Source: a virus | Direction: 5' to 3' (one strand) | IMG/VR virus record: IMGVR_UViG_3300048044_000171 | Span: 1-36,454 of that record | DNA length: 36,454 nucleotides | Shown: in pieces, positions 5,878 through 25,708 of the stretch | Layout: the number at the start of each line of letters is the position of its first letter | Numbering within the stretch: the stretch's first letter is position 1 | Made by a program: the position numbers and the translations under genes | Notes under the pieces: generated by a model | Told to the model about the DNA's origin: nothing | Databases searched by the model: none | The model's input: the letters and a program-made list of their open reading frames with translations, nothing else

Positions 5878-5967
5878 ATGAAGGAACATTCAATTTAAAA
5901 TAATCGGCGTTAATCTTAAGAGCATTGGCACTCGGCGACAAATAAAGAAATTGAGGAGGATTACATC

Positions 5968-6216
5968 GTGAAATTAACTGCAGAGCTATTGGCAAAGCTT
6001 TTGGCCTGGAAAGAAAAGGGTAATCGTGGGTTTACAATTCAAACTTATCGGCGGTATGAAGATGCTTTTATTATTGTCTTCGACTATGCACTCGTAGGAG
6101 ATTTAGAAATCAATGAGTCCAATGTAAATAAAAACTGGTCCGAATTAATTATGCGAGAAAAGAAAGAATTCCTCGCTGCTGAATTGGCTCGGTGCGCAGA
6201 AAATATAGCATTATGA
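5968..6216 (+). CDS. Small early protein, function unknown
   Basis: 82 residues from a GTG with GAGGAGG 8-9 nt upstream. Helical N terminus (MKLTAELLAKLLAWKEKG) and an acidic middle section; no family recognised. It opens the cluster that leads through the next small gene into the Bet recombinase, so it may be a recombination or replication accessory protein, by position only. Confidence 0.65.
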   Translation: MKLTAELLAKLLAWKEKGNRGFTIQTYRRYEDAFIIVFDYALVGDLEINESNVNKNWSELIMREKKEFLAAELARCAENIAL

Positions 6217-6422
6217 GCCTTGCCGATGATAATGGGATTACAGATGCTTTTGATTTATTGAGCGGAAGATGTACAAGGCCAGAGCTGATTAATCCATATC
6301 TCAGAGAGCATTATACGGGGCGGAAACCGCGTGATGGTGAAATGTGGCGCAGTCCCATGAGTAGGGAATTAGTACGGTATGTAGACCTTGAAAAAACGAA
6401 GGATGGTGTAGAAAATGGCTAA
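6213..6422 (+). CDS. Small early protein upstream of bet
   Basis: 69 residues if the ATG at 6213, which overlaps the previous stop as ATGA, is used; a GTG at 6192 would add seven residues. The stretch RKPRDGEMWRSPMSRELVRYVD is distinctive but I do not recognise a family. The stop codon overlaps the start of the recombinase gene by 8 nt, which indicates tight translational coupling. Confidence 0.6.
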   Translation: MSLADDNGITDAFDLLSGRCTRPELINPYLREHYTGRKPRDGEMWRSPMSRELVRYVDLEKTKDGVENG

Positions 6423-11845: not shown

Positions 11846-11876
11846 TTGGTGCGTATAATCGGGGGAGGGGTTAACC

Positions 11877-12338
11877 ATGGATTGCATTAGAGAGGCTGAA
11901 AACTATTTGCGATATTATCGTGACTTACATAAGAGTATTAAACACGCGGATCGGATTATCAGTCAGCTTATAGGCCAGTCGGCACCGAAGCCAATCAACG
12001 CGATTGTTTTAGAGGCTACAGGCGTTAGGGCATCTAATCCACGTAACACTTTGAATCAGATGTATCAGCTGCAGAAGTGGCAGGAGATAAGAGAACGGAC
12101 GCTGACCGAGATTGCTAAGGTTGATGACGTTCTTGATTCAATCTGTATTGATCCGGGCTGTGAACGGTACAAGGAATTGCTGTATATGTGGTATGTTGAG
12201 AAACTGGATAAAGAAACTATTGCAGAGGCACTTGGATACAGTAAAAATTCAAAGCAAACTGTATATGACATGAGGCGGGTAGCTATTAAAAAATTTTCTG
12301 TCTCTTTATTTGGTATTGAGGCTTTACAGGCAATCTAA
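11877..12338 (+). CDS. ArpU/RinA-like late transcription regulator
   Basis: 153 residues, helical, with a sigma-region-4-like helix-turn-helix near the C terminus (KLDKETIAEALGYSKNSKQTVY, then MRRVAIKKFS). Such proteins sit at the end of early regions of Firmicute phages, just before the small terminase gene, and activate the late structural operon. The gene has GGGGGAGGGG upstream and is followed by the accessory island rather than directly by the packaging genes, so its target promoter must lie in or beyond the island. Assignment rests on domain type and position. Confidence 0.8.
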   Translation: MDCIREAENYLRYYRDLHKSIKHADRIISQLIGQSAPKPINAIVLEATGVRASNPRNTLNQMYQLQKWQEIRERTLTEIAKVDDVLDSICIDPGCERYKELLYMWYVEKLDKETIAEALGYSKNSKQTVYDMRRVAIKKFSVSLFGIEALQAI

Positions 12339-12375
12339 AAAAGAAAAAGTCTAGACGCTTTTTTGATTTTAGCTG

Positions 12376-12384
12376 TGTTATGAT
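12376..12384 (+). promoter_or_regulatory. Extended -10 promoter candidate
   Basis: TGTTATGAT is an extended -10 (TGn plus TATGAT). Seven bases after it the sequence GTGAAAAAT begins the 5' arm of the candidate RNA. No clear -35 is visible, which is tolerated by extended -10 promoters or could reflect activation by the late regulator just upstream. Confidence 0.45.
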
Positions 12385-12390
12385 GATATT

Positions 12391-12576
12391 GTGAAAAATT
12401 GTAATTAACTATAGAACGCTTGCATAAGATGATTGAAGTTGGCAAATGATGCTGATCACATGAATAGGGAAAGGTCGTTGAGCAAGATGTAGATGTGCCG
12501 TAATAGCGGCTGTGATTTTTCACCCTCCCCTGCACTATAATGACCAAAGGCTGCTCATTGAGCGGCCTTTTTTATT
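12391..12576 (+). ncRNA. Candidate structured small RNA, about 186 nt
   Basis: No coding frame of note lies here. The 5' sequence GTGAAAAAT (12391-12399) is the perfect complement of ATTTTTCAC (12515-12523), closing a domain of about 130 nt. Inside are CTTGC/GCAAG and the small hairpin GCCG-taatag-CGGC. The closing stem is followed by CCTCCCC, an anti-Shine-Dalgarno-like C-rich stretch, and then an intrinsic terminator. Promoter, closed fold, C-rich motif and terminator together suggest a trans-acting or 6S-like RNA. Alternatively it is a 5' leader of the cargo operon with an attenuator. A second TATAAT (12536-12541) is a competing explanation. Confidence 0.45.
12547..12576 (+). terminator. 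Rightward intrinsic terminator
   Basis: AAGGCTGCTC (12547-12556), loop ATT, GAGCGGCCTT (12560-12569), then a T-run. Ten base pairs with one G-U. It isolates the first cargo cassette from the early operon and ends the candidate RNA. Confidence 0.88.
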
Positions 12577-12577
12577 C

Positions 12578-12604
12578 GCAGGGAAATATCTCCTTTTGGC
12601 GAAA
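12578..12604 (+). promoter_or_regulatory. Sigma-H-like promoter, cargo cassette 1
   Basis: GCAGGGAAA...GGCGAAA: AGGG and GAAA separated by 17 nt. It shares GCAGG and an internal CCTTTTG with the two other island copies. It lies directly after the terminator and 34 bp before the DUF4145 gene. Confidence 0.5.
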
Positions 12605-12637
12605 GATGTATGAAGACGGTAAAAGGAGAGAAACAAC

Positions 12638-13366
12638 TTGGAAGATAAAGGTGCGATTGGAAAAGTACTGTTATGTATCTCTTGTGGAAATAAAACCTTT
12701 ATGGGGAAAGTTGCTAGCTATCAGGATAAGGAAGAGGAATGGGATGAGGATGATTATGAACGTTTCCACGTAGGCACAATTAGCAAGACATGGGAGCTGT
12801 ATTTTTGCCCTGTATGCCATAACGTCACTCTAGAGCTAATTCAATGGGAAGATTATCATGGTTGCCCGGAACCTAGAACTTATACAATCGTATATCCAGC
12901 TATGATGTCAAAATCTCAAGCTGTTCCAATGAAGATTAAAAGAGCATTTGATGCTGCTTTGAAAGTAAGAAATATTGATGGGGCAATTTGTGCCTTATCC
13001 ATAAGGCGAACGTTAGAAATGATGTGTAAAGAAAAAGGAGAAACTAAAGGTTCTTTATATCAGAAATTAACCAATCTAGCCCTTAAGGGAATCCTTCCGC
13101 CTATATTGGATAAAATGGCATCAGTATTAAGAACATTAGGTAATAATGCTGCCCATGCAGAAGATAAAGATTTTCCACCAAAATTAGTTTCTTCAATGAT
13201 TGAGTTTACTGAAATTATACTTGACTATGTTTATCTACTTCCGAAGAAACTTGCTGACATTCAATCTGATATTGACAAAGAAAAATCAAATTTCGCAACT
13301 CCAATTGCTGAAACTGATGCAAGTATGTCGGAAAATATAGATGTAAAGGATTTTTTTACAATTTAA
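12638..13366 (+). CDS. Zinc-ribbon DUF4145 protein, defence candidate
   Basis: 242 residues, TTG start about 9 nt after AAAAGGAGAG. The N terminus has two CxxC pairs (C13/C16 and C57/C60), a zinc ribbon. Residues 100-215 form the helical DUF4145 domain, with the pattern ALSIRRTLEMMCKEKG, LYQKL, GILPP and LRTLGNNAAHAED. R165 and H173 in that last motif resemble the HEPN-type arginine/histidine pair, so an RNase activity is possible. DUF4145 domains are common in restriction and other defence genes. It forms its own cassette with promoter and terminator, next to the two-gene membrane module. The first 62 residues and the tail after 215 show no other motif. Confidence 0.78.
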   Translation: MEDKGAIGKVLLCISCGNKTFMGKVASYQDKEEEWDEDDYERFHVGTISKTWELYFCPVCHNVTLELIQWEDYHGCPEPRTYTIVYPAMMSKSQAVPMKIKRAFDAALKVRNIDGAICALSIRRTLEMMCKEKGETKGSLYQKLTNLALKGILPPILDKMASVLRTLGNNAAHAEDKDFPPKLVSSMIEFTEIILDYVYLLPKKLADIQSDIDKEKSNFATPIAETDASMSENIDVKDFFTI

Positions 13367-13409: not shown

Positions 13410-13436
13410 GCAGGTAAATGATTCCTTTTGCTGAAG
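13410..13436 (+). promoter_or_regulatory. Sigma-H-like promoter, cargo cassette 2
   Basis: GCAGGTAAA...GCTGAAG: AGGT and GAAG at 17 nt spacing, sharing GCAGG and ATTCCTTTTG-type core with the neighbours. A T-run that may belong to a weak terminator of the DUF4145 gene immediately precedes it (13401-13406). It drives the two-gene module. Confidence 0.5.
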
Positions 13437-13482
13437 TAGGTAAAAATTAATAGAAATTGCATTAGGCAAAGGAGTGTATGTC

Positions 13483-14316
13483 ATGATTCGAGAAATGATT
13501 GTTTTATTTGGTCGTTTAAATTTAATTGCTAACTATGATGATAAGGGGAAATATCTACTTACCAGCTTACAAGCAGATAAGCAGATAAATGTACGTGAAT
13601 TTGACTGGGGATTTTTTGATGTTTCTGAATTTGAATATGAAGATCAGCGTTATATTTTAGGAAATTTGGTAAAATATAAATCAAAATTAACCGAAGAATT
13701 TGTTGATAAACAAACTAGAAGAACAACTAACACACAAATAAATGATCGCGTCGTGGCTAAGTCTGAATTTATTTTACATATAAAAAGTGGATTAATTGCA
13801 TATCATACAATTAATAATCACATAACTCATCAACAATTTCAAAAGTTTTTTGCTGAACTTGTAGAAGCTGCGAATGATTATCTTTTAGTAAATGCCGAGA
13901 TACAGAGTATTAATGAGCAAAATGAAATCTTGGAAGCTATTCAGAAGTTCGAAACAATTAATCGACTCACTATATATTTGCATCCATCAAATCCTCGGTT
14001 TAGTGATCGTTGGGAAAAAGTCGATAAAAAGCTAAAAGCTATGTCTGCCCATTCGTATAGAGCAATTTATCAAACACAAAGTAGCCTTGCAATCGAGGCA
14101 GATGAAGATGCTATGAGCGAAATTTATATGGCCGTTGATGGTTATGGAAGAGCTACCGTCCATGGGACTAAAAATGGTAAATCAGCTACCGCTAGTACTG
14201 TTAATGCACCAATGAAACAAAACATTTCTTTATCGGAAGATCCAAAAGAAATGCTTACTGGTGTTCTCGATAAATTTCGTGAAATTTGGGATAGGATGAC
14301 TAAAAGTGAAATGTAA
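13483..14316 (+). CDS. RexA-like soluble protein of a two-gene module (candidate)
   Basis: 277 residues, ATG at 13483 with AAAGGAG 8 nt upstream. Mixed alpha/beta protein without signal or membrane segments. Distinct stretches are SEFILHIKSGLIAYHTINNH, a helical pair around residues 125-165, LTIYLHPSNPRFSDRWEK, and a Thr/Ser/Lys-rich strand region. I associate this pattern with prophage proteins of the DUF4747 type, from memory only. The next gene overlaps by 11 nt and encodes a four-helix membrane protein. Length and partner match lambda RexA (soluble sensor, about 280 residues) with RexB. No sequence homology to RexA is claimed. Abortive infection is the working hypothesis. Confidence 0.7.
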   Translation: MIREMIVLFGRLNLIANYDDKGKYLLTSLQADKQINVREFDWGFFDVSEFEYEDQRYILGNLVKYKSKLTEEFVDKQTRRTTNTQINDRVVAKSEFILHIKSGLIAYHTINNHITHQQFQKFFAELVEAANDYLLVNAEIQSINEQNEILEAIQKFETINRLTIYLHPSNPRFSDRWEKVDKKLKAMSAHSYRAIYQTQSSLAIEADEDAMSEIYMAVDGYGRATVHGTKNGKSATASTVNAPMKQNISLSEDPKEMLTGVLDKFREIWDRMTKSEM

Positions 14317-14802: not shown

Positions 14803-14828
14803 AGCGTCCTATCCAGGGCGCTTTTCTT
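14803..14828 (+). terminator. Terminator of the two-gene module
   Basis: AGCGTCCT (14803-14810), loop ATCC, AGGGCGCT (14815-14822; one G-U), then TTTTCTT. It directly precedes the next sigma-H-like promoter, repeating the terminator-promoter-gene pattern of the island. Confidence 0.75.
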
Positions 14829-14838
14829 ATGCCCTTTA

Positions 14839-14865
14839 GCAGGAAGACATTGCCTTTTGCCGAAC
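14839..14865 (+). promoter_or_regulatory. Sigma-H-like promoter, cargo cassette 3
   Basis: GCAGGAAGA...GCCGAAC: AGGA and GAAC 17 nt apart; first eight positions agree with RnAGGAwWW except G in a W position. It has the shared CCTTTTG spacer and lies 35 bp before the next gene. Confidence 0.55.
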
Positions 14866-14899
14866 AATGTATAAAAATGGTAAAGGGAGTGTGTATAAG

Positions 14900-15205
14900 A
14901 TGAGTTGGGAAAACGATTTAAGAGATGATAATATTTCAGAATCATATAAACTTGTCGGGGAATGGAAGGTTTATGTTGGACGTAAACGGATTGGAATTAA
15001 GGTTTGGCAGAATAGTAATGGAAAATATGATTATGATACGAGCCATTTTTATCAGGGACCGCAACAACCAGGACCACATCAGTCTAGCCGAGCAAACCTT
15101 GGTACTGATCAAGAGGCCCTCCTTGCAGCGGAGTCTCAAATACTCTCATATTATGACAGTAATTATAACGATGATAAGTACTGGAAACTTAATAATGAAT
15201 ATTAA
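14900..15205 (+). CDS. Small cargo protein, function unknown
   Basis: 101 residues. ATG at 14900 is preferred, as AAAGGGAGTG lies upstream at a suitable distance; an ATG at 14867 would start inside promoter sequence. An N-terminal beta-rich part (YKLVGEWKVYVGRKRIGIKV) is followed by a proline/glutamine linker (GPQQPGPHQS) and an acidic, tyrosine-rich end (SYYDSNYNDDKY). No family recognised. It is the third cassette of the island with its own promoter. Confidence 0.6.
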   Translation: MSWENDLRDDNISESYKLVGEWKVYVGRKRIGIKVWQNSNGKYDYDTSHFYQGPQQPGPHQSSRANLGTDQEALLAAESQILSYYDSNYNDDKYWKLNNEY

Positions 15206-15392
15206 TTAAGAGATGTAAGACTCTATTTTCCATGGTTGGTTTTATAATTACTGGACGAGACTATCCGATTTAATACAGTTTGTGTCCACCTATAAACTCA
15301 ATACATTCAAGCCTTTGCGGTATCACTGGACGAACTTGTCCGGCTGGTGCCGCTTTTTAATACAAAAAAAGAAAACCGTCGGATAGGCAGCT
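15206..15392. other. Intergenic stretch with two related hairpins
   Basis: ACTGGACGA occurs at 15250-15258 and 15325-15333, each beginning a small hairpin (GGA...TCC and GGAC...GTCC). The second is nested in the terminator at 15317-15358. No gene seen. Confidence 0.5.
15317..15358 (+). terminator. Rightward terminator of the cargo island
   Basis: GCGGTATCA (15317-15325) pairs with TGGTGCCGC (15345-15353) with two G-U pairs, encloses GGAC/GTCC, and is followed by TTTTT. It ends transcription of cassette 3 before the convergent small gene. Confidence 0.75.
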
Positions 15393-15889: not shown

Positions 15890-16774
15890 ATGGCTCAGGC
15901 TTATGAGTTAGCCGAAAAAGATTATATTCTCGGATTGAAGTATAAGGCTATAGCTGAAAAGTATGGTGTATCGGAAAATACAGTCAAGTCATGGCGGAAA
16001 AGACATGGCTGGTCTAGGGATAAAACGGCAAAAATAGGTGCACCCATTGCACCCCTAAAAAATCAAAAAGGTTGCACCCCAAAAAATAAGGGAAAACCGG
16101 AACCAGAAGAAGAGCGGTCCGATCAGGAGCAGCTTTTTTGTTATCATTACGTCCGGACGCATAACGCCACGCAAGCGGCTCTTCTGTCTGGATATGCCAA
16201 AGGTGGAAATAAGGCCAGCGCCCAGGTGATCGGCAGCCGCTTATACAATCGCCCACGTGTTAGACAAGAGATTGATCGTTTGACAGAATTATTTCGCCAG
16301 GACATTCATGTCAATATACAGGACTTTATTGCCTTCTGCATGAAGGTGGTTGGCGCTGATGTTGGTGACTATCTGACTTGGGGGCAAAAAGAAGTACCTG
16401 TTATGGGGATGTTTGGGCCTGTAATTAATCAGGAGACAAACGAGCCACTTACTAAAATGGTCAATTATGTCGATCTTGGCGAAAGCGAAATGCTTGATAC
16501 ATCGGTCATTTCTGAAGTCAAGCAAGGCAAGGATGGCATCAGCATTAAGCTAGCAGATAAGAAATGGGCCTGGGAGCAGCTTACGAAGTATTTCGACTGG
16601 CTGCCGGATCAGTGGCAGCGTAAGGTTGAAGGCGAAAGATTAACGCTTGAAAGTAAGAAAGTTAAGTTGATGGAACGTAAGCTTGGCGATGATGACGATC
16701 CCAAAGAAGACGATAACAGCTTTTTGGAAGCTTTGAAAGGTAAAGTCCCGGAGGTGTGGGACAATGGCTCTTAA
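15890..16774 (+). CDS. terS: Terminase small subunit
   Basis: 294 residues; recognises the packaging start site and presents it to the large subunit. An N-terminal helix-turn-helix (AEKYGVSENTVKSWRKRHGW) is followed by a linker and the terminase_2-type core with NATQAALLSGYAKGGNKASA and the RQEIDRL helix, then a helical C-terminal region ending in acidic residues. The ATG at 15890 overlaps a minimal AUG-UAA start-stop (15885-15890), both after the strong GGAGGTGGTG. Overlaps the large-subunit gene by 11 nt. Confidence 0.92.
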   Translation: MAQAYELAEKDYILGLKYKAIAEKYGVSENTVKSWRKRHGWSRDKTAKIGAPIAPLKNQKGCTPKNKGKPEPEEERSDQEQLFCYHYVRTHNATQAALLSGYAKGGNKASAQVIGSRLYNRPRVRQEIDRLTELFRQDIHVNIQDFIAFCMKVVGADVGDYLTWGQKEVPVMGMFGPVINQETNEPLTKMVNYVDLGESEMLDTSVISEVKQGKDGISIKLADKKWAWEQLTKYFDWLPDQWQRKVEGERLTLESKKVKLMERKLGDDDDPKEDDNSFLEALKGKVPEVWDNGS

Positions 16775-24990: not shown

Positions 24991-25121
24991 CAAAGGAAGA
25001 ATACCTTAACGCAACAGAACGGGAGCTACTGGCTCTGTCTATTGGCTATGCCGAAATGAACGGGGCCAAGACGGAATACGATGACCCGTTGGACTTTTTT
25101 GGTATGCAACAGAAGGAATAA
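24532..25121 (+). CDS. Tail assembly chaperone, frameshifted long form (gpGT-like)
   Basis: A single -1 frameshift at the heptamer A AAA AAC (24927-24933) fuses the short chaperone to a C-terminal extension of about 60 residues in the adjacent frame, with DYGSEYAFYRSKCRLTKEEY, then ELLALSIGYAEMNGAKTEY and a terminal PLDFFGMQQKE. Total about 196 residues. In lambda and many siphophages the ratio of the two products sets chaperone function. The extension has no start or ribosome site of its own, so frameshifting is the only plausible route. Confidence 0.85.
24927..24933 (+). promoter_or_regulatory. -1 ribosomal frameshift site
   Basis: A AAA AAC in the zero frame, preceded by three more As (nine in all, 24924-24932). 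Canonical X XXY YYZ slippery heptamer; an A AAA AAA slip at 24924-24930 is also possible. Confidence 0.85.
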
Positions 25122-25139
25122 AACCTCTTTTTGTTGAAT
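25112..25139 (+). promoter_or_regulatory. Sigma-H consensus promoter of the tail-operon moron
   Basis: GAAGGAATA, 12 nt, GTTGAAT: all defined positions of the RnAGGAwWW-N11/12-RnnGAAT consensus are met. It overlaps the stop codon of the frameshifted chaperone and ends 23 bp before the secreted-protein gene. Confidence 0.65.
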
Positions 25140-25162
25140 GATGCGGCAAGGAGGGGATCAGG

Positions 25163-25708
25163 TTGAAAAAAATAATCCTAGTGTTTATTCTATTAATGAT
25201 GATATGTTTAACTGGTTTAGCCGCACCATCGCAGGAAGAATTAGATGCGAGAAACATACTTGATGATCTTAAGAGTTTATCATTACGTTTGGAGAACCCC
25301 GCAAATTTCAATGAGTTCTCCACATATTACAATAATATATATATCAAGGTTCGTAAATTTGATATATTATACCCGTCTAGTGTCATAGGACATGATATAG
25401 CCAACGCTTTTGTTCCATATTATGATGTTTACGGAATTTGGAAAAGGCCATCCCTTGTTTCTGAAAATAAATATAGGTGGGCAAATTGGCTTAGACCTAA
25501 AGAGATAGAATATTTGCAAGAACAATATGAAGGAATGAGGGCTTTAATTAGTTCTAATTTAATTACGACGCTTGATGATGGTAATATGTTAATTGGTTCT
25601 GAAACTAATGATGATTCAATTATTGTATTGCTATTTACCACGGCTACTGAAAGGATAAAGCCATTGGAAGATAAAATAAATCAAACGTATAGAACAACCG
25701 CCAATTAA
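25163..25708 (+). CDS. Secreted moron protein, superinfection-exclusion candidate
   Basis: 181 residues, TTG start after GGAGGGG. A signal peptide (KKIILVFILLMMICLTGLAA, residues 2-21) without lipobox precedes a soluble, helical domain (ILDDLKSLSLRLENPANFNE, YSSVIG..., LRPKEIEYLQEQYEGM in parts). AT content is higher than in flanking tail genes. It sits between the chaperone and tape-measure genes with its own promoter and terminator, so it is not part of the virion programme. HK97 gp15, an inhibitor of superinfecting DNA entry, is likewise a moron among tail genes; a periplasmic block on phage entry is a reasonable but untested hypothesis. Confidence 0.78.
   Translation: MKKIILVFILLMMICLTGLAAPSQEELDARNILDDLKSLSLRLENPANFNEFSTYYNNIYIKVRKFDILYPSSVIGHDIANAFVPYYDVYGIWKRPSLVSENKYRWANWLRPKEIEYLQEQYEGMRALISSNLITTLDDGNMLIGSETNDDSIIVLLFTTATERIKPLEDKINQTYRTTAN

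Follow-up and report, generated by a model that had tools for sequence, protein, structure and literature searches.

The 36,454-nucleotide (nt) stretch of viral DNA analysed here, IMG/VR record IMGVR_UViG_3300048044_000171 (hereafter the window), carries between the gene for a late transcription regulator and the packaging genes an island of three cargo genes, each preceded by a copy of a conserved element that we call the header. An earlier annotation made from the letters of the DNA (the sequence-only reading) had proposed a complete gene for a candidate structured small RNA (sRNA) at 12376-12576, between the regulator and the island. We find that this segment is more likely the late promoter of a prophage together with a 5' leader, which runs up to and includes the terminator at the front of the first cargo cassette, than a stand-alone structured-RNA gene. 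The downstream sigma-H-like site, which had been treated as a possible spoiler of the sRNA, turned out to be the more conserved feature, overlapping a covarying RNA hairpin over the Shine-Dalgarno (SD) sequence of the cargo gene. The features of the locus are the following.

11877-12338, plus strand: ArpU/RinA/Ltr-type late transcription regulator of 153 amino acids (aa) (phrog_36, E=1e-11; relatives with 61-67% identity in viral contigs and Sporomusaceae)
12349-12385, plus strand: late promoter GTCTAGACGCTTTTTTGATTTTAGCTGTGTTATGATG with an extended -10; motif kept behind the regulator in relatives
12391-12545, plus strand: leader body (the proposed sRNA body), not conserved; holds the arms GTGAAAAAT and ATTTTTCAC and, at 12523-12530, CCCTCCCC
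12546-12570, plus strand: intrinsic terminator by its fold, 11 pairs and then TTTATT, at the front of the first cargo cassette; within a stretch 88% identical in locus L003
12578-12635, plus strand: cargo header copy 1, sigma-H-like promoter GCAGGGAAA ... GGCGAAAGA (model R1, 43.2 bits, E=3.7e-9)
12638-13366, plus strand: cargo gene 1, DUF4145 protein of 242 aa (PF13643, E=8.7e-17)
13410-13481, plus strand: cargo header copy 2, preceded by a weak terminator; stands before the gene starting with ATG at 13483 and is predicted to mask the SD at 13467-13475 (R1, 24.1 bits, E=1.8e-4)
13483-14316, plus strand: cargo gene 2, DUF4747 protein (PF15931, E=1.1e-9)
14803-14822, plus strand: terminator before header copy 3
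14839-14895, plus strand: cargo header copy 3, before the gene starting with ATG at 14900 (R1, 29.0 bits, E=1.2e-5)
14900-15205, plus strand: cargo gene 3, about 101 aa, from the list of open reading frames (ORFs)
15890-16774, plus strand: terminase small subunit (PF03592, E=2.4e-25; phrog_2606, E=1e-77), with which the packaging genes resume behind the cargo slot

R1 is a covariance model made from 21 other header copies, and on the window it gave exactly three strong matches, one before each cargo gene. A weak fourth header-like match (14.6 bits, E=0.04) was seen in the late region at 25112-25162, directly before an ORF starting with TTG at 25163. The header has the layout RnAGGAWWW-N11-RnnGAA, which fits the published sigma-H consensus RNAGGAWWW/RNNGAATWW (PMC8510167) at 11-nt spacing, and its spacer, CTCCTTTTGNC, is complementary to the SD region of the header's own gene. 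The sigma-H-like -35 and -10 elements flank the 5' arm of the predicted hairpin, the transcription start being likewise a predicted one, near 12611, 13443 and 14872 for the three copies of the window. When we searched with the 16-mer WTCTCCTTTTGTCGAA, which is blind to the -35 side, 74 places were found, and in 57 of these RnAGGR stood at exactly the sigma-H spacing, the other places being mostly chance-like. The GAA of the -10 was kept, and the final T of GAAT was present in 32 of the 57 copies.

In header copy 1 the arms of the hairpin lie at 12589-12598 and 12620-12629 and would mask the SD of the gene starting with TTG at 12638; the fold has a z-score of -4.36, reached by 0 of 200 shuffles. 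The predicted probability of the SD being unpaired was 0.01 on read-through RNA versus 0.47 on RNA from the predicted start for copy 1, 0.08 versus 0.45 for copy 2 and 0.03 versus 0.46 for copy 3. Among headers generally, pairing with the own downstream region averaged -12.3 kcal/mol, as compared with -11.3 kcal/mol for mispaired elements and downstream regions, and 0 of 2000 shuffles reached the own value. Set against the SDs of other genes on the same contig, the own SD gave -12.5 versus -9.1 (P = 2.5e-13), with 16% of the other SDs equalling it. In the 21 ungapped copies 85% of the cells were paired, versus 56-66% for slid helices; positions 22 and 11, which lie outside the core that places the helix, covary, and the covariation score was reached by 7 of 500 shuffles. 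The structural part of our proposal, a predicted hairpin of the read-through RNA whose 3' arm contains the SD, is well supported by prediction and covariation, and the case for it rests on the excess over controls and on the covariation outside the SD core.

Over 126 copies, the mean probability of an unpaired SD rose from 0.12 on read-through RNA to 0.71 on RNA that begins at the predicted start (0.40 and 0.54, respectively, for control genes), a difference that is favoured by the SD in this test having been picked by complementarity. This choice weighs against the picture drawn here, and several other observations do so as well. Part of the SD pairing is trivial because the spacer resembles the anti-SD of 16S ribosomal RNA, and pairs changed on both sides were not significant (179 of 500 shuffles). 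The final T of GAAT is missing from about half of the copies, among them all three of the window, which read GAAA, GAAG and GAAC, so that the use of sigma-H is not certain. A terminator within 65 nt upstream accompanies only 25 of 81 header copies (24 of 378 control genes), and the late-promoter motif described below is missing in five relatives of the regulator.

Beyond the window, the pattern GCAGG-N8-TCCTTTTGNCGAA occurred in 108 stretches of viral contigs, and about 80 non-redundant viral header copies were collected and aligned. Nearly all of them stand shortly before a start codon, at a median of 53 nt from the header start; examples are found at 5303-5360 of L003, 3578-3629 of L021 and 4871-4928 of L008. 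Geobacillus GBSV1, Anoxybacillus A403 and Aeribacillus AP45 also carry the header, there located between the early and the terminase genes, and it was found a few times in host genomes. Using tblastn, we located homologues of terminase, HNH or portal proteins downstream and on the same strand, mostly at 0.3-4 kb, for nearly all of 45 header places, these being the places where such a homologue was found, several of them on the same locus. The 70 proteins encoded downstream of headers (L052-L130) matched 22 PHROGs and 14 Pfam families, none of which accounted for more than two of the proteins, and because of this spread over many families we regard the genes as cargo rather than as one conserved gene. 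Single PADLOC matches among them point to models of a TIR-type effector, AbiGi and PD-T7-4, and two Cse60-like sporulation proteins were also noticed. Cargo gene 3 of the window, in a 112-aa reading of the same frame, matched no Pfam family and no PHROG. On the minus strand of L101, at about 5961-6409, terminator and header (GGAGCCGTCCGGGAGGACGGTTATTTTCTTAGCAGGAAAACCCTTCC) occur twice at a distance of about 380 nt, which looks as though the boundary module itself had been copied along with a gene. In the papers searched we found no description of the header and no match to any of four exact header strings, which is not proof of its being undescribed.

The regulator upstream of the island has relatives with about 42-67% identity in viral contigs and among the Sporomusaceae (genomes of Anaerospora, Sporomusa, Lucifera and Pelosinus), and a comparison of the ArpU protein with annotated phages gave no match. 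Behind the regulator gene lies the extended -10 that the sequence-only reading had pointed out (TGtTATGAT, 12376-12384). A motif like GACACTTTTTTGACTTTGACCGTGcTATAATG stands behind the regulator in ten non-redundant loci, the window included, and in nine of the ten its -10 is found 40-43 nt past the regulator stop codon. The window contains one match to the late-promoter motif where shuffles lead to an expectation of 0, and all four matches to the exact pattern in viral contigs lie directly behind this regulator. With a looser pattern 18 stretches were obtained from viral contigs, those not behind the regulator being mostly chance-like, except in L039, L046, L047 and L048. The late-promoter-like motifs of these four, in phages that were not found via this regulator, may be similar promoters; in L048 a hairpin with a T tract follows just downstream. 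By eye, nGAC repeats about 11 bp apart can be recognised upstream of the -10 in several loci, where they resemble an activator site, and the late promoter is probably controlled, through presumed binding, by the ArpU/Ltr-type regulator encoded directly upstream. Late promoters of the RinA/ArpU/Ltr type, such as P23 of the Staphylococcus aureus phage phi13 (PMC13123087), similarly have a small regulator gene directly upstream and packaging genes downstream and, as may be the case here too, repeats upstream of a TATA-like -10. In contrast to P23, the candidate repeats here are short nGAC ones about 11 bp apart past the stop codon, and a terminator-like hairpin usually comes next.

This GC-rich hairpin with its T tract was found within 75 nt of the -10 in seven of ten loci, versus 12 of 400 random windows (3%). 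The first downstream gene of L006 and of L012 starts right behind the hairpin, with its SD closely following the hairpin, so that late RNA from this promoter must cross it. In the window the distance from the -10 to the terminator is more than 100 nt longer, and the extra body has no homologue. The terminator itself had been noticed by the sequence-only reading, which had counted ten pairs where there are 11, and it opens the cargo island; in L003 the terminator and boundary stretch (terminator, GCAGGAAATTGTTTCCTTTTGCCGAA and SD) is 88% identical and stands before a different cargo gene. Behind late promoters the hairpin may serve as a terminator, as an antitermination target as with lambda Q, or in protection of the 5' end. 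The promoter and the terminator that had been taken for parts of an sRNA gene are real as sequence features and more likely belong to a late promoter and a cargo-cassette boundary; the earlier reading saw both and drew the wrong boundary around them. No gene is evident between the two, and a transcript that starts at 12391 would end at about 12573-12576 (183-186 nt). It is therefore plausible that a terminated RNA of some 185 nt is made, in agreement with the length of about 186 nt and the missing coding frame that had been put forward.

The body of this RNA gave no sign of a dedicated structured sRNA gene. Its paired arms are present as had been described, GTGAAAAAT at 12391-12399 and ATTTTTCAC at 12515-12523, forming a perfect 9-bp inverted repeat 115 nt apart. 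Dinucleotide shuffling of the 183-nt transcript produced a perfect 9-bp inverted repeat with arms at least 60 nt apart in 29 of 1000 cases, and shuffling of the body alone did so in 8 of 1000, a statistic that is suggestive at most because the repeat was chosen after inspection. In the relative L019 the same start, ATTGTGAAAAAT, places the arm GTGAAAAAT behind the promoter with no partner arm, so that the family is not characterised by the closing helix. The fold of 12376-12576 has a z-score of -1.0, and that of the body +0.13 without and -1.4 with the terminator. In searches for homologues of the body, BLAST against phages and plasmids returned terminator-like pieces or chance matches only, an exact 19-mer had no match in viral contigs, and among eleven related records the single significant match was to the terminator part. 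Rfam gave nothing credible at the gathering score for the whole window and 12 header-bearing loci; up to E=5 there was no 6S match for 12340-12700, the best being the ylbH leader with 18.5 bits against a gathering score of 50. The body is thus without homologue, without unusual stability and without an Rfam match at the gathering score.

The suggested likeness to 6S RNA goes back to a generic closed-end fold. Like bacterial 6S RNA, the leader would be near 185 nt in length and closed by a long helix, as the sequence-only reading pointed out; unlike it, the leader has no Rfam 6S match, no conservation and, in particular, no conserved closed-end helix with a large central bubble, and it folds no better than shuffles. 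We rejected a 6S-like RNA for want of a covariance-model match and of conservation, and we also rejected the idea that the TATAAT preceding the terminator is a second promoter, since no more than a few bases separate it from the stem. The C-rich motif CCTCCCC, present at 12524-12530, fared better. It had been suggested as a possible partner of ribosome binding sites (RBSs), and target prediction gave an 8-nt perfect match to the SD of arpU: the single plus-strand site in the window complementary to CCCTCCCC is GGGGAGGG at 11862-11869, and when 40 gene starts were ranked as leader targets the arpU SD stood at the top, with -24.9 kcal/mol as against -20.3 kcal/mol for the runner-up. This suggests a possible feedback pairing of CCCTCCCC with the arpU SD, which would exert negative feedback on the late regulator, and an sRNA role of the leader, similar to that of StxS, is still conceivable. 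The earlier observation is confirmed in part, and its sRNA interpretation partly supported.

Taken as a whole, we consider it on balance probable that the locus consists of a late promoter with its leader, followed by cargo headers that mask the SD on read-through and allow expression from their own promoters. Each of the cargo genes 1-3 would possess a header in which the spacer between the -35 and -10 of a sigma-H-type promoter doubles as the 5' arm of a hairpin over the SD. On RNA reading through from upstream both arms would be present, the SD would be hidden and translation would not take place, and on RNA from the header promoter the 5' arm would be absent and the SD exposed. It would follow that the cargo is expressed in the lysogen, probably during transition or stationary phase, and that late lytic read-through leaves it silent. 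Conservation, position, pairing and covariation are properties of the sequences themselves, and from them we infer the binding of the regulator, the use of sigma-H, the transcripts, the effect on translation and the purpose.

The RBS-sequestering hairpins of T4 and the T-even phages (I-TevI, segB, mobE, soc and e; PMC2988022) resemble this arrangement in that read-through RNA hides the RBS, in that a promoter inside or next to the hairpin yields RNA lacking the 5' arm, with translation from the own promoter only (on the header's side all of these are predictions), and in that they serve accessory genes, for example homing endonucleases. They differ in that the inner promoter of T4 is a phage late promoter, whereas that of the header resembles a host sigma-H promoter, and in that here a single type of header is common to many unrelated genes across numerous prophages of Firmicutes. 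As the inner promoter is host sigma-H-like and the read-through RNA would be late phage RNA, the timing would be inverted with respect to T4. The header is a novel variation on a known regulatory type, and the sRNA finding as originally stated is a modest one. Morons of temperate phages are accessory genes that sit between phage modules, each equipped with a promoter and a terminator of its own; the cargo genes share this layout, to which the header adds a shared, conserved element for a putative translational mask.

Other explanations of the leader have to be weighed against this. StxS is an sRNA of the PR'-tR' region that begins at a late promoter and stops at an early terminator (PMC7873438), and like it and the lambda pR'-tR' leader (6S RNA) the window's leader would be a short RNA of this build, located between a late regulator and late or cargo genes; in contrast to both, leader length and sequence are not conserved here, no Q homologue was seen, and antitermination and an sRNA role are only putative. 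It is quite improbable, in our judgement, that the leader RNA ending at 12570 is a trans-acting sRNA of the StxS kind, whose CCCTCCCC pairs with the arpU SD and damps the regulator by negative feedback. StxS sets a precedent, promoter and terminator do enclose about 183 nt without an evident gene, and the complement of CCCTCCCC is unique on the plus strand and tops the 40 gene starts; yet the body is found in this window only, leaders are much shorter in most relatives, and C-rich stretches pair with SDs by nature, which makes a first rank among 40 weak. The promoter and terminator might instead form a processive antitermination switch like lambda pR'-tR'/Q, in which the regulator lets the polymerase past the terminator and the short RNA is a by-product. 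Such a switch would agree with the hairpin being within 75 nt of the -10 in seven of ten loci and with its having to be crossed by the late RNA of L006 and L012. On the other side, the nGAC repeats, which recur at about 11 bp in several loci, fit a DNA-binding activator, as Ltr proteins are described to be (PMC13123087); many of the hairpins are followed by four T only and may be weak terminators or 5' stabilisers, and separate late promoters nearer terS are possible, so that we find the switch rather doubtful.

As for the header, its -35-like RnAGGAWWW is conserved although it is no part of the hairpin, and it agrees with the published consensus (PMC8510167), as would be expected if the header were a sigma-H-like promoter only, with the CTCCTTTT spacer kept for DNA reasons and the SD pairing incidental. 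That explanation is unlikely in view of the pairing and covariation outside the SD core, of own pairing exceeding mispaired controls and of the failure of slid helices. The 150-nt body, in turn, may be a neutral insertion or a recombination leftover that joined the late promoter to the cargo cassette, a view compatible with masked cargo headers behind a late promoter. It has no homologue and an ordinary fold, and the conserved parts that flank it occur elsewhere without it; the 9-bp closing repeat, found in only 0.8-2.9% of shuffles, and the specific match of the C-rich motif argue otherwise, and to us the two sides appear evenly balanced.

If our preferred reading of a late promoter followed by SD-masking cargo headers is true, a short header would explain how accessory genes are kept off in lysis despite sitting before the late packaging genes, and cargo expression would be tied to the entry of the host into stationary phase or sporulation. 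The header could then be used as bait for prophage cargo, including candidate defence genes, and would offer a case of a T4-style translational mask outside T4-like phages. It is conceivable, with the balance just on the doubtful side, that a widespread and previously undescribed Firmicutes prophage header marks a cargo slot before the terminase, that the genes behind it are silent in lysis and active in transition-phase lysogens, and that unrelated cargo can be exchanged in the form of ready-made cassettes and recognised from the header alone. The window also contains, between its cargo and its packaging genes, an imperfect direct repeat, ATTACTGGACGAGACTATCCG at 15247-15267 and ATCACTGGACGAACTTGTCCG at 15322-15342, perhaps an operator or a recombination site.
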